DNA of 64,000 nucleotides, taken from assembly GCF_000233715.2 (NCBI RefSeq), contig NC_021184.1:3434001-3498000 (forward strand). The letters are read 5' to 3'. The position numbers and the translations under genes were made by a program. The notes below the pieces were generated by a model. The model saw nothing but the letters and a program-made list of their open reading frames with translations. It was not told the origin of the DNA and searched no databases. This DNA is from Desulfoscipio gibsoniae DSM 7213 (GTDB lineage Bacteria; Bacillota; Desulfotomaculia; Desulfotomaculales; Desulfallaceae). This document shows, one piece after another, positions 34,422 through 58,129 of this stretch (position 1 is its first letter; the number at the start of each line of letters is the position of its first letter).

Positions 34422-34654
34422 CACTCATTGAGCTTTTTTATGAGTACCTCGAGGCCCCACTGGGCGCAATAGACAAACAGCTCTTTCTTGTCCTCAAAAT
34501 ACTGGTATATGCTGCCCGTCGCCACTTTCGCGTTTTGGGTGATGTCTCCGATTTTCGCACGGTCAAAGCCGTTCTCCACGAACTCATGGATAGCCGCGCG
34601 CAAAATGCGCTCCTGTTTTTCATCCCTAAGTCGTAAAAATGTTTCCTTTGGCAT
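34422..34654 (-). pseudogene. TetR regulator, C-terminally truncated
   Basis: The first ~78 residues are a standard TetR DNA-binding domain (QERILRAAIHEFVENGF, IGDITQNAKVATGSIYQYF, KKELFVYCAQ). The ligand-binding domain is missing. The frame breaks off after KKLNECS where the truncated tRNA-Ser begins. Confidence 0.75.
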
Positions 34655-35033: not shown

Positions 35034-35128
35034 ACTTTTCTTTCTTGCCGTTCTTGGCATAAAAAAACACCCCACAAGTATGTTATCTTTGTGCCTGGGT
35101 GTCGTCAAACAAAGAACCGTCCCCTGTT
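35034..35128 (-). mobile_element. RAYT/REP element, 5'-end remnant
   Basis: It contains the first codons of the RAYT gene on the minus strand (MPRTARKKS), its leader, and the terminal repeat AACAAAGAACCGTCCCCTG. The rest of the element is absent. Confidence 0.7.
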
Positions 35129-38325: not shown

Positions 38326-39928
38326 CTCAACTTTCGCAGTTCAAAAATCAGTCTAACCCCTTACAAAATAAGAATTTAGGCCAACTTTTTTAAGCAAAAA
38401 CAAACAGAAAACACGCCTTTTTTGGTAAAATGTAGTCACCACAACAACACACCAAGAAAGGATGTTTTCTGTGGCTATAATTTTACCAAAAAATGATAAC
38501 AATGAACAGGCTAAATCTTATTCTGATCGGTTTATAAAGCAGGCAAAAATAGGAACCTTTTTGCACCAGGCGAATATCCGAAAAGAATCCGGTCTATCGC
38601 CATTGTTCCTTTTCCAATTTATCTTTTCCCTTGTATTTCAAGGGAAAAATCTTTATCGAACATTGGAGTCAGGTCGTATAGATAACGCTCCTTCCAAAGA
38701 TGCGATATATCGTTTTCTAAACAGGCCTACATTCAATTGGCGGAAATTTCTTGTTACAATCAGCTCATTTCTCATCAAAACAAGACTTTTACCCCTGACA
38801 TCAGAGGGCCGGGCTCGTGTATTGATTTTAGACGACTCTACTTATTCCAGAAACCGTAGTAAATCGGTTGAATTATTGTCCCGGGTTCACGATCATTCAA
38901 CAAATCGGTATCTGAAAGGGTTTCGGATGCTGACCTTGGGTTGGTCTGATGGTGGAACCTTTCTGCCCCTTGCGTTCTCTCTGCTTAGCTCTGATAAAGA
39001 GAAAAATCGTTACCAGGGGCTAAATCAAAGGATTGACAAACGGACAGTTGGATACCGCCGTCGCAAAGAAGCTATTCAAAAATCCACAGAAACTATGTTC
39101 TCGCTTCTCGACCAAGTGAACCCTTTTCAACTTTGTGCGAGTACCCTGCTTTTTGATAGCTGGTTTGCCTTTCCAGTCGTAATCAAGCGGGTGCTGACAG
39201 AATACCATTTGCATGTTGTTTGTATGCTCAAGAATATGCACCGCGTTTATTACACCTATAATGGAAGCGAATATACATTGGGTCAACTTTACAAAGTTCT
39301 TCGCAAAAAACGCGGGCGGGCCAAGATTCTATCATCCGTCGTTGTCGGGCTTGGTAAGGCCCAAAACGGAAATGACGTTCTGGTAAAAATCATCTTCGTT
39401 CGAGACCGTAACCGCTCAAAAAAATGGTTGGCAATCTTAACAACAAACCTTGAGCTATCTGATGAAGAAGTTATCCGTATTTATGGCAAACGCTGGGAAA
39501 TCGAGTGTTTCTTCAAAGTCACAAAGTCCCATTTGCATTTGGCAAAGGAATTCCAGTGCCGTAGTTATGATGCGCTTACTGCTCATACCACCATTGTCTT
39601 TGTGCGATATATCATGCTGGCTTTAAGTGCCAGAGAGGAGAAAGACCCCAAGACCCTTGGCGAGCTCTTTTATCTGTGTTGCGATGAAATTGAGGATATT
39701 CGCTTTACCGAAGCTGTTCTTTTAATCATAGATCTTTTCGCCTCATCATTTAGCAAGGAATTTCTTCTTTCTGAAGAACAAATTCAACATTTTTTGGATA
39801 CGTTTTTCGAGCAATTACCTGCCTTTCTGAAAAGTTCGCTTCAGAAAAGAGCAGTTGCTTGATATTAATAATTCCAAAACGCTTGCATATTAAGAGCTTG
39901 AGCTTATTTTTAAGGTGCGAAAGTTGAG
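38326..39928 (+). mobile_element. IS4-family insertion sequence with 7-bp target duplication
   Basis: It is bounded by perfect 13-base inverted repeats CTCAACTTTCGCA (38326) and TGCGAAAGTTGAG (39916). TTAATAA directly flanks both ends (38319-38325, 39929-39935). The length is 1603 bases. The element is apparently complete. Confidence 0.9.
38462..39862 (+). CDS. IS4-family transposase
   Basis: Up to 466 residues; a GTG at 38472 with AAGAAAGGA eight bases upstream is an alternative start to ATG 38462. DDE residues are in LILDDSTYSRNRSK, LLFDSWFAFPVVIKR and YGKRWEIECFFKVTKSHL, the last being the IS4 Y-x2-R-x3-E-x6-K signature. The frame is intact, so the element may be active. Confidence 0.9.
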   Translation: MFSVAIILPKNDNNEQAKSYSDRFIKQAKIGTFLHQANIRKESGLSPLFLFQFIFSLVFQGKNLYRTLESGRIDNAPSKDAIYRFLNRPTFNWRKFLVTISSFLIKTRLLPLTSEGRARVLILDDSTYSRNRSKSVELLSRVHDHSTNRYLKGFRMLTLGWSDGGTFLPLAFSLLSSDKEKNRYQGLNQRIDKRTVGYRRRKEAIQKSTETMFSLLDQVNPFQLCASTLLFDSWFAFPVVIKRVLTEYHLHVVCMLKNMHRVYYTYNGSEYTLGQLYKVLRKKRGRAKILSSVVVGLGKAQNGNDVLVKIIFVRDRNRSKKWLAILTTNLELSDEEVIRIYGKRWEIECFFKVTKSHLHLAKEFQCRSYDALTAHTTIVFVRYIMLALSAREEKDPKTLGELFYLCCDEIEDIRFTEAVLLIIDLFASSFSKEFLLSEEQIQHFLDTFFEQLPAFLKSSLQKRAVA

Positions 39929-43460: not shown

Positions 43461-43690
43461 TTAACCTCGCTGATATCCAACGCTATTTCGGTTGTCGTCA
43501 TAATACTCGTAGTCTTGCTTATGGGCTTGTATCATAATCAGCTGCTGTTTATGTATAAATGTTACGATTTCATCCTGCAGCTGCTTGGTAATATCCGTAA
43601 ACTCAACGCTAACAAAATATTTTCCATCCGAATCATTAACGCAACGCACCACAGTACCGGAAATGCTGACAACTTCGCCTTTTACGGTAA
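43461..43690 (-). pseudogene. PilZ-domain protein, C-terminal remnant
   Basis: The minus strand reads TVKGEVVSISGTVVRCVND, GKYFVSVEFTDITKQLQDE and IVTFIHKQQL, the last strands and helix of a PilZ (c-di-GMP-binding) domain, then an acidic tail ending at 43461. The upstream part is cut off exactly where the RAYT element begins. Confidence 0.55.
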
Positions 43691-44221
43691 ATCAGGGGAC
43701 GGTTCTTTGTTCTACGCTCTGAATATCTTGTTGACAGTAAATCCTGTCAATCTGGACAGCTGTCTCAACGAGCTGCCCTCCAATTCCTTCATATACTTTA
43801 GAATTTCTTTTTGAGTATCCGGAAGCTGATTCTGTAGTGATGCCAACTCAATATTATACTTCCTTAAGATTATCTGCCTTATCTCTTTATCGGATATTGT
43901 TTTCCTTCCCTCGGTTATTTCAAGACACTGGTCATTATTTGATTCATTATTAAACTCCTTGAATTTTTCAATAGCTTTTTCCCTATCCTCATGGAACATA
44001 TCAAGCACATAACCTGTATTAACCATTTCCGATTCGTAACCTCAAAAAGTTTCTCGTAATCTTTATCATCCTCAAAAATACTCTGCTGGTTAATCCCTCT
44101 AAACATTACGTGATATATCCTGCTTTCACTTTTCTTTCTTGCCGTTCTTGGCATAAAAAAACACCCCACCAGTATGTTATCATCCTCCAGGGTGTTGTCA
44201 AACAAAGAACCGTCCCCTGTT
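43691..44221 (-). mobile_element. RAYT/REP element, internally deleted
   Basis: It has the same terminal inverted repeats as the intact element (CAGGGGACGGTTCTTTGTT at 43693, AACAAAGAACCGTCCCCTG at 44201). The transposase is reduced to its first ~35 codons (MPRTARKKSESRIYHVMFRG..) and last ~100, having lost about 330 bases including the HUH motif; the two parts are in different frames. Confidence 0.8.
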
Positions 44222-44239
44222 CTAGTCACCCTGTTCTAG

Positions 44240-44812
44240 TCACTCTTCATTAAGACTTTTCTTATCATCCTCTCCTAACCTTTGATTTAGTTTTCCGCCA
44301 ATGAAGGCCAAGTCACATTCAAGTTGCAGAATGCGGTTGTGAATAGTTATAAAATCTAATTCGCCGGTATTTTGTACACATTCATTTTTTCTCATTCGTA
44401 GATAATAATCATAATTTCCGTCATAAAATTTTAACGATCCATGCTCCAACAGCATGATTTTGGCAGCAATCCTTTGTACAAAATAGATATCGTGTGAAAC
44501 AAATAGGATGCCGCCCGTATATTGCTCTAAGACTTTTTCGATTTTTTCCTTAGCGGCGATATCTAAATGGTTGGTAGGTTCATCCAAAACAAAAAAGTTT
44601 GCACCTGACAAAATCAGCCTGGCAAATGCGACCCGACATTTTTCTCCCATACTCAACCCCTTAACCTTCTTAAAAACATCGTTTTTCTTGACGGTAGTTA
44701 CGATATTGTTTGTTGAAGCGTCGTCATATTTTTTTTGGGCAAATTCAGCCAGAGCCGCGTTTAGTATACGTTCTTTTTTTTGATCGTTAAGATTTTCAAA
44801 AAAATTACTCAA
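44240..44812 (-). CDS. TetR-HTH / ABC-F ATPase chimera
   Basis: A continuous 190-residue frame. Residues 1-40 are the start of a TetR DNA-binding domain (KKERILNAALAEFAQKKYDD, ASTNNIV). From about residue 42 the sequence is the second ATPase domain of an ABC-F protein: signature KGLSMGEKCRVAFARLIL, Walker B FFVLDEPTNHLD, H-loop ILFVSHD, ending YDGNYDYYLRMRKN. The Walker A and first ATPase domain are absent, so ribosome-protection activity is unlikely. It most simply arose by a deletion fusing adjacent genes, and the frame has stayed open. A large palindrome lies upstream. Confidence 0.75.
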   Translation of the reverse strand: MSNFFENLNDQKKERILNAALAEFAQKKYDDASTNNIVTTVKKNDVFKKVKGLSMGEKCRVAFARLILSGANFFVLDEPTNHLDIAAKEKIEKVLEQYTGGILFVSHDIYFVQRIAAKIMLLEHGSLKFYDGNYDYYLRMRKNECVQNTGELDFITIHNRILQLECDLAFIGGKLNQRLGEDDKKSLNEE

Positions 44813-44841
44813 GAGAAATCCCGCCTTTCATACAAATATAC

Positions 44842-44892
44842 AAATCGACCACCATGGTCTATCAATTTAAAAATAGACATGGTGGTCGATTT
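44842..44892. promoter_or_regulatory. large palindromic operator upstream of the chimera
   Basis: AAATCGACCACCATGGTCTAT and its near-exact reverse complement ATAGACATGGTGGTCGATTT are separated by ten bases; one G bulges in the left arm. It probably is the TetR-type operator of the ancestral regulator. Confidence 0.65.
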
Positions 44893-44922
44893 GTCAAGGG
44901 TTTTTATATTTTTGCACCCCTC

Positions 44923-44970
44923 TTGACCTAACAGGTAAATTACGTTATACTTTGACCTGTCAGGTAAATT
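44923..44970 (+). promoter_or_regulatory. promoter with two TetR operators for the exporter operon
   Basis: TTGACC-N17-TATACT (44923-44951). Two copies of TTGACCTNNCAGGTAAATT, each with palindromic core ACCTGTCAGGT or ACCTAACAGGT, start at 44923 and 44952. One covers the -35 and the other lies just after the -10. Confidence 0.75.
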
Positions 44971-44990
44971 TGCTTGGGGGAGTGAGAAAA

Positions 44991-45614
44991 ATGCAATCGA
45001 AAATTTGGGATTTGGACGAAGCGCGGCGTTTGAACATTATCAGTGCTGCTTTGCAGGAATTTGCCACAATGGGCTACGCCAGTGCTTCGACCAATGTTAT
45101 TGCTAATAAGGCAGGGATTTCTAAACCCTTGATGTTCCACTACATCGGCAGCAAAAAGGAACTGTTTTTGTTTTTGTACGATTACTGCTTGGAGTTTTTG
45201 CAGAAGGAATACTTTGGCAAAATCAACAAAGGCGAAAAAGATATTTTTGCCCGCTTGACCAACACCTGCCTGCTAAAAATAGAAGTTTTGCTCAAATACC
45301 CCTGGATCTTCGATTTTGTGCGGATGGTCACCGCTGAAAATAGTGGCGAAGTAGCGGAAATTATCAGCCAAAAACAGTGGGAAGTAGAAAATACCAGCTT
45401 TGCCGAGTTTTTCGGCGATATTGAAACTATCCACTTTAAAGAAGGCTTGGATATTGAAAAAGCCAAGGAGCTTATTTTTTGGGCTGTTAGCGGTTATGCA
45501 ACTAAAGTTTTGGAAAACCAGCGCGGCAGCAGCTTGTTGAACATGGATTATGAGGCCATAAAAAACGAATTTGCCGCTTATATCGCGGAATTAAAAAAAG
45601 CCTTCTATAGATAA
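44991..45614 (+). CDS. TetR-family repressor of the exporter operon
   Basis: ATG 44991 follows GGGGGAG; the product is 207 residues. The HTH is AALQEFATMGYASASTNVIA, NKAGISKPLMFHYIGSKKEL. The C-terminal domain is all-helical with several aromatic residues. It lies 12 bases before the ABC ATPase gene and has two operators upstream, so it most likely autoregulates the whole operon and responds to the exported compound. Confidence 0.88.
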   Translation: MQSKIWDLDEARRLNIISAALQEFATMGYASASTNVIANKAGISKPLMFHYIGSKKELFLFLYDYCLEFLQKEYFGKINKGEKDIFARLTNTCLLKIEVLLKYPWIFDFVRMVTAENSGEVAEIISQKQWEVENTSFAEFFGDIETIHFKEGLDIEKAKELIFWAVSGYATKVLENQRGSSLLNMDYEAIKNEFAAYIAELKKAFYR

Positions 45615-50315: not shown

Positions 50316-51166
50316 AACAGGGGACGGTTCTTTGTTTTACGCTCTGAATATCTTGTTCACAGTAAATCCTGTCAATCTGGACAGCTGCCTCAACGAGCTG
50401 CCTTCCAATTCCTTCATATATTTTAGAACTTCTTTTTGAGTTTCCGGAAGCTGATTCTGTAGTGATGCCAACTCTATATTATATTTCATTAAGATTATCT
50501 GCCTTATCTCTTTATCGGATATTGTTTTCCTTCCTTCGGTTATTTCAAGACACTGGTCATTATTTGATTCATTATTAAACTCCTTAAATTTTTCAATAGC
50601 TTTTACCCTATCCTCATGGAACATATCAAGCGCATACCCTGTATTAACCATTTCCGATTCGTATAAATACTCCTTATAGCTGCTCCATTCATATTCCTCC
50701 ATATTCTCTACCAATCCTGCTTTTACCGGGTTTTGATGTATGTATCTTAACACGGTAAGAAAATATGAATCATCCTCAACAGTTTCACTCTTAAATCTAT
50801 CTTGAAATAAGTGGCCTTTTCTGCCGTATTGCCAATTGTACCAGTATACATAGCTGGTTCCGATCCTCTTCATTATATTCGAAAGTTCTTCCCGGCCTTC
50901 TCGAATTAATAAGTGTATATGGTTTCCCATCAAACAGTAGGCGTATATTTCATATTGTAACTCTTCACGGTATTTGTTAAAAACTTTAATAAGTTTCTCG
51001 TAATCTTTATCATCCTCAAAAATACTCTGCTGGTTAATCCCTCTAAACATTACGTGATATATCCTGCTTTCACTTTTCTTTCTTGCCGTTCTTGGCATAA
51101 AAAAACACCCCACAAGTATGTTATCATCCTGCCAGGGTGTTGTCAAACAAAGAACCGTCCCCTGTT
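50316..51166 (-). mobile_element. intact RAYT/REP element
   Basis: Perfect 22-base terminal inverted repeats (AACAGGGGACGGTTCTTTGT.. at 50316; reverse complement at 51145) bracket a complete Y1 transposase gene. The element is 851 bases long. Confidence 0.85.
50337..51098 (-). CDS. REP-associated tyrosine transposase (Y1/RAYT)
   Basis: ATG 51098 (MPRTARKKSESRIYHVMFRG) after GGGGTG; 253 residues. The HUH motif is YCLMGNHIHLLI, the catalytic Tyr region is GTSYVYWYNWQYGRKGHLFQ and YIHQNPVKAGLV is diagnostic of the RAYT subfamily. The C-terminal ~70 residues form an extra HTH-like domain (LRQLSRLTGFTVNKIFR). The stop codon lies in the terminal repeat. Confidence 0.9.
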   Translation of the reverse strand: MPRTARKKSESRIYHVMFRGINQQSIFEDDKDYEKLIKVFNKYREELQYEIYAYCLMGNHIHLLIREGREELSNIMKRIGTSYVYWYNWQYGRKGHLFQDRFKSETVEDDSYFLTVLRYIHQNPVKAGLVENMEEYEWSSYKEYLYESEMVNTGYALDMFHEDRVKAIEKFKEFNNESNNDQCLEITEGRKTISDKEIRQIILMKYNIELASLQNQLPETQKEVLKYMKELEGSSLRQLSRLTGFTVNKIFRA

Positions 51167-51473
51167 CTGCCCCCTGTTTTCCCTTGGGCTGAACACCTAC
51201 TCCTTCTTTATCATTCGAATAGTTTACCAGATCATCCACTCTATATAATTCTGCCAAAGCTAAACAATTATTTTATAAAATTATTTTCGCGTAAAAATTA
51301 AGCACTTAGCGAAAATTCCCTCAAACTGTTTTTTGCAAGAGCTTTTTGGAGAAAGTTGCAAGTAATTTTTCCATAGTATTGCATCTCCATTTTCCACAAT
51401 GTTGCAAGTTCTCTTTCCCCGCCATGTTTTACAGGGAAAGAGAAGACTTGCAGGCATTTGTTACCTGAATTAA

Positions 51474-56911: not shown

Positions 56912-58129
56912 TTATATGGCCATCTCTGATTCTATCCTATCACCAAAGTATATGACAAATTGGGAGATGCAATTTTTCCAATCTTTAACTGGCATAGTCC
57001 ATTTTTTTGCTGCTTCAACGGTGGCCAGGTAAATAATTTTCTTCAGTGAATCGTCTGTTGGATAGGCAGTTTTAGTTTTGGTTACTTTCCGTAGTTGCCG
57101 GTGGTAACCCTCGATGATATTAGTAGTATAAATCATTTTACGGATTTCATATGGGTATTTAAAATAAGCTGTTAACTCAAGCCAATTCTTTTCCCAGGAA
57201 CGAATTATAATGGGATGTCTTTTACCCCAGTTTTCTTTGAATATTTCAAAGGCTAACTCAGCCTCTTCCAGGGTTAATGCCTGGTACACTTGCTTAAGAT
57301 CAGCCATCAACTCCTTTTGTTCTTTGTATGGCACATACTTCAGGGAATTACGGATTTGATGGATTATGCAAAGCTGAATTTCGGTATGGGGGAAAACAGT
57401 GTTTATGGCCTCAGAAAACCCGGAAAGCCCGTCTTTACAGGTAATCAGGATATCTTGCACCCCCCTGTTTTTGAGGTCATTACATACACCAAGCCAAAAG
57501 CTGGCACTTTCATTTTCCCCAATCCAGATGCCAAGTATTTCTTTTTGGCCTGCCATATTTAGGGCCAACACACTGTAGGCCGCCTTGTTTATTATCCGGT
57601 TATCTTTACGTACCTTGAAATGGATAGCATCAAGGAAAACAATAGGGTATATACGGTCAAGTGTCCGGGACTGCCACTCTGCAATCAGTGGTAGTATTTT
57701 GTCTGTTATCTTGCTGACCATGGTAGGGGATACGTCGATACCGTAGATATCCCTCATGTGGTCCTCAATATCACGTGTAGACATACCCTTGGCGTACATG
57801 GCTATAATTTGGTCTTCAAGCTGGTTGGATGTCTTTTCATATTTACCGATAAGCCTTGGTTCAAATTCACCATTACGATCCCGTGGGATTTCCACTTCTG
57901 TCTTGCCGAACTTAGTCTGGATAGTTTTCTTATTGTAACCGTTGCGACTGTTGCCAGTATTATTGCCTTCAATGCTGTGTTTTTTATACCCGAGGTGCTC
58001 TTCAATTTCAGCCTCGAATATCTGCTGCAAGGTGTCCTTGAATAGATTCTTGAGCATCTCATGTACGTCTTCTACGGTGCGGCAATCCTTTGCTAATTCC
58101 TTGATCGTTTTGTCTTGCATGGCTTGCAT
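56912..58129 (-). CDS. IS256-family (mutator-type) transposase
   Basis: 405 residues, intact. FLDAIHFKVRKDNRI (first Asp), LITCKDGLSGFSEAI (second Asp), CIIHQIRNSLKYV and TTNIIEGYHRQLRKVTK (Glu) are the mutator-family signatures. The zinc-free N-terminal region has GYKKHSIEGNNTGNSRNGY. It could be active. Confidence 0.95.
   Translation of the reverse strand: MQAMQDKTIKELAKDCRTVEDVHEMLKNLFKDTLQQIFEAEIEEHLGYKKHSIEGNNTGNSRNGYNKKTIQTKFGKTEVEIPRDRNGEFEPRLIGKYEKTSNQLEDQIIAMYAKGMSTRDIEDHMRDIYGIDVSPTMVSKITDKILPLIAEWQSRTLDRIYPIVFLDAIHFKVRKDNRIINKAAYSVLALNMAGQKEILGIWIGENESASFWLGVCNDLKNRGVQDILITCKDGLSGFSEAINTVFPHTEIQLCIIHQIRNSLKYVPYKEQKELMADLKQVYQALTLEEAELAFEIFKENWGKRHPIIIRSWEKNWLELTAYFKYPYEIRKMIYTTNIIEGYHRQLRKVTKTKTAYPTDDSLKKIIYLATVEAAKKWTMPVKDWKNCISQFVIYFGDRIESEMAI

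Follow-up and report, generated by a model that had tools for sequence, protein, structure and literature searches.

Within a 64,000-nucleotide window of the Desulfoscipio gibsoniae DSM 7213 genome, a 190-codon minus-strand open reading frame joins the front of a tetR-family regulator to the back of an ABC-F gene. We read this frame (44240–44812) as a chimeric pseudogene, with a probability of roughly 0.88. It combines two recognizable origins with defined breakpoints and the loss of key motifs, and it lies among further gene scraps (Table 1). Because both halves lack parts needed to work, a decaying relic is more likely than a new protein, and any product would be predicted to be inert.

Table 1. 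Features at and around the chimeric open reading frame (ORF), in window positions
Feature	Position	Strand	Remarks
Chimeric ORF	44240..44812	−	190 codons; TTG start; SD-like AAGGCGGGA just 5'
tetR-family 5' fragment	44692..44812	−	residues 1 to ~41, helices 1 and 2; lacks recognition helix
ABC-F internal/3' fragment	44242..44691	−	signature, Walker B, H-switch; lacks NBD1, NBD2 Walker A and C-terminal ~20 residues
Operator O2	44847..44859	−	GACCATGGTGGTC, 13 bp, start-codon side; fits GACC-N5-GGTC sites 5' of related TetR genes
Operator O1	44876..44887	−	GACCACCATGTC, 12 bp, promoter side; one base short of relatives' 13-bp form
Promoter-like TTGACA-16-TATTTT	44870..44897	−	overlaps O1; called purely by consensus match
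IS200-like (Y1/RAYT) element, internally deleted	43690..44235	−	24-nt inverted ends; abuts cut ABC-F end
PilZ-domain gene 3' fragment	43461..43688	−	other side of IS200-like element
Divergent intact tetR-family gene, then ABC transporter genes	44952..45614	+	neighbor, not parent; 30% identical to L074 TetR

Two truncated genes in one open frame

A sequence-only reading had described this frame as TetR-like at its front and ABC-F-like over the rest, which the ORF, its translation, and profile matches bear out. Base-by-base comparison places the switch at about 44691/44692. The DNA breakpoint there is sharp, with 96% ABC-F identity beginning at 44691 and TetR likeness stopping. At the other end, the ABC-F match stops at 44242, adjoining the IS200-like element. 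No in-frame stops or frameshifts occur within the frame, although this openness means little, since both pieces were open beforehand and an in-phase join has a chance of about 1 in 3. Recognizable parents, truncation at a sharp breakpoint, and a lack of conservation are together what a chimeric pseudogene should display.

The TetR portion had been taken to supply a DNA-binding helix-turn-helix (HTH). The family resemblance holds, but the HTH is incomplete: the match covers positions 1–23 of the 47 in the TetR_N profile, about half, at 12.9 bits, below the gathering score. This leaves out the recognition helix, so that the chimera is not expected to bind DNA; the C-terminal ligand/dimerization domain is absent as well. 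The closest intact relative of this half is a 208-residue TetR protein (L074:2092-2718) from a genome of another family of the same phylum, with 76–81% identity over ~40 residues. Past the join this protein reads TTAQISKGILFRYF, whereas the chimeric ORF reads TTVKKNDVFKK; QISKGILFRYF stands in the intact protein where the chimera turns to ABC-F. Its gene stands before a rifamycin-phosphotransferase (Rph)/PEP-synthase-like gene (L074:2737-5280), which is split over two frames (260 + 556 aa), possibly by a frameshift or an assembly gap. The remainder of the TetR parent was found neither in the window nor in the whole genome, where the best TetR is 30% identical over its full length. The neighboring TetR gene at 44952 was ruled out as the parent, with no more than 45% identity over the N-terminus. 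A further short TetR-like frame of ~89 aa lies at 34442–34639 (minus strand); it is 33–45% identical to the TetR group and is probably a truncated regulator.

The second half had been described as the second ATPase domain of an ABC-F protein. It does carry NBD2 sequence, but the domain is not whole, as the match spans positions 94–137 of the 137 in the ABC_tran profile, the last third. Walker A is thus missing (GENGAGKTT of the intact Desulfotruncus arcticus relative lies upstream of the breakpoint), so neither ATP binding in the usual way nor ATPase activity is to be expected. The signature, Walker B, and H-switch are present in the translation as LSMGE, FFVLDEPTNHLD, and SHD. The intact relative matches ABC_tran in two stretches; the chimera lacks the arrangement of two nucleotide-binding domains and a linker. 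Across 44242–44691, 433 of 450 nucleotides (96%) are identical to this 591-residue D. arcticus ABC-F gene (L057:7414-9189), followed by intact genes of Desulforamulus aeronauticus (86%), Desulfocucumis palustris (84%), Candidatus Formimonas warabiya (80%), and a same-genus genome (79%). The D. arcticus protein scores 478 bits against NF000355 (NCBIfam, ribosomal protection-like ABC-F; cut-off 380), and the chimeric ORF scores 148.8 bits, below that cut-off. The missing ABC-F piece is present neither in the window nor elsewhere in the whole genome.

That the fragment is closer to a gene of another genus (96%) than to the same-genus copy (79%) suggests that the ABC-F gene arrived by recent horizontal transfer. 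When background identity was gauged over 19.5 kb of the window, few matches came back (63–74%, none in D. arcticus), so the comparison serves as a rough yardstick only.

Beyond the ABC-F end lies the IS200-like element, which is 95% identical, in two pieces, to a fuller copy at 50316–51178 and has lost ~318 bp internally. The PilZ fragment on its far side matches profile positions 59–100 of 102 (E 1.1e-4, above the gathering score). The minus strand from 44897 to 43461 is thus a line of scraps: a TetR front, an ABC-F back, a deleted element, and a PilZ back. All five exact genomic matches to the IS200-like end sequence fall within the window (35110–35126, 43690–44235, 50316–51178) and represent a fuller copy, a copy with an internal deletion, and the end of a fragment. 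Two more transposase genes, of DDE and Mutator type (38462–39862 and 56912–58129), mark the same 20 kb as an insertion-rich region.

Paired operators upstream of the frame

An intact operator with 20-base arms had been proposed upstream. A large inverted repeat does exist, with 17-nt perfect arms (44840–44856 and 44878–44894), and comparison with related TetR genes identifies it as two TetR operator sites, O2 and O1. Two 13-bp GACC-N5-GGTC sites, 33–37 bases apart, lie upstream of 10 of 12 related TetR genes, revealing a common operator layout for this TetR group; judged by eye, a TTGACC −35 is overlapped by the first site, with a −10-like box between the two sites. With one base lost from O1 and a spacing of 28 between O1 and O2, the operator in the window falls short of being fully intact. 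A separate site pair accompanies the divergent TetR gene at 44952: TTGACCTAACAGGT / TTGACCTGTCAGGT (44923–44970) lie around a −10-like TATACT, in the same paired arrangement with a different sequence.

No other operator pair of the GACC-N5-GGTC type was found in the genome. The sole other exact 14-mer sits within an apparently birA-like coding sequence and was rejected as a second operator locus. Given this result and the lack of a genomic TetR near the lost parent, the original repressor probably no longer exerts control in this genome. With one operator, the promoter-like sequence, and a good ribosome-binding site still in place, the chimeric ORF could be expressed as a short peptide. A literature search on rifampin-phosphotransferase TetR operators returned no paper with the terms used.

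Origin and fate of the fusion

The join itself is real. Misassembly, which the sequence-only reading had named as part of what would refute it, would require two real loci to have been brought together, and neither missing half is present anywhere else in this closed, one-contig genome of 4,855,529 bases. With no two loci to join, an assembly artifact has a next to negligible chance of being correct.

How the two halves met is a separate matter. The sequence-only reading had proposed a deletion between adjacent tetR and ABC-F genes, which is a sub-case of the chimeric pseudogene rather than an alternative to it. A TetR gene does adjoin the ABC-F gene in D. arcticus, but it sits downstream rather than upstream and is a different TetR (74% over 66 nt, 53% over 34 residues), which rules it out as the parent. 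None of the five intact ABC-F relatives shows a TetR in front, in upstream DNA covering ~1.1 kb in D. palustris and more in the other four. A simple deletion is therefore unsupported, and we consider it unlikely. Since an Rph-like gene follows the closest TetR, two separate resistance-type loci, rather than neighbors, were probably joined.

The order of events can be sketched as follows. An ABC-F gene of the ribosome-protection type may have been acquired recently by horizontal transfer and then joined, by illegitimate recombination and by chance in frame, to the first ~41 codons of a tetR gene. The captured tetR front would have kept its promoter, paired operators, and ribosome-binding site, and the other ABC-F end would have been cut off at the IS200-like element. 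With the cognate repressor absent, the promoter could be constitutive and yield a short non-functional peptide.

Against a pseudogene stand the frame, open throughout, and the retained operator, promoter-like sequence, and ribosome-binding site. These features, together with an intact distant ABC-F paralogue in the same genome (G000:C1:1305862, 51%), could instead indicate a new expressed small protein, an ABC-F-derived fragment under a captured TetR promoter acting, for example, as a decoy that binds the ribosome or the paralogue. We regard this as improbable: the chimera occurs once, shows signs of relaxed selection, and lacks the recognition helix, Walker A, most of the fold, and the interdomain linker, with its C-terminus truncated at the element. 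The more specific proposal of a newborn gene, in which a horizontally acquired ABC-F fragment under a captured drug-inducible TetR promoter encodes a small protein modulating the ribosome or an ABC-F paralogue, is more doubtful again.

The single occurrence refers to about 500 genomes, in which neither an identical fusion nor any further chimera turned up. In 113 genomes of the class and 398 of the phylum, matches to the TetR front sit in frames of TetR size, and most ABC-F matches among 100 relatives belong to full-length frames. Viral contigs do not contain the exact junction. No plasmid or phage copy of the chimera was found; a plasmid DNA search was negative, protein matches stayed below 60%, and the plasmid ones listed are ordinary ABC-F genes. 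Among titles, no paper on TetR/ABC-F fusions was found.

The ABC-F part differs from D. arcticus at 17 positions. Polarized with four outgroups, these comprise 5 nonsynonymous (one at the junction codon) and 1 synonymous change in the window lineage and 3 of each in the D. arcticus lineage, the rest being ambiguous. Both branches together give 9 nonsynonymous to 8 synonymous, a very small count compatible with some constraint. The pattern is consistent with relaxed selection on the fragment, in numbers too small to prove it. This substitution pattern, the TetR-front/ABC-F-tail join, and the sharp breakpoint support the chimeric pseudogene. As a relic, the locus is a clean case of resistance-type gene fragments joined near insertion elements, and it cautions against taking an in-frame open fusion behind a promoter as evidence of a new protein.

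Comparison with known systems

Over 450 nucleotides, the chimera closely resembles an intact D. arcticus member of the ARE ABC-F proteins (Vga-like/NF000355), but it lacks the NBD1, linker, NBD2 Walker A, and C-terminal end of that group. With TetR repressors that have paired GACC-N5-GGTC operators, it shares the N-terminal ~41 residues and a promoter region with two sites; it differs in lacking the recognition helix and the ligand/dimer domain, in having one damaged operator, and in its altered site spacing. Chimeric pseudogenes arising via illegitimate recombination are known from IS-rich regions. Like them, the frame described here has truncated parents, occurs in one genome only, and has an IS200-like element at its border, although it happens to be in frame and retains a promoter.
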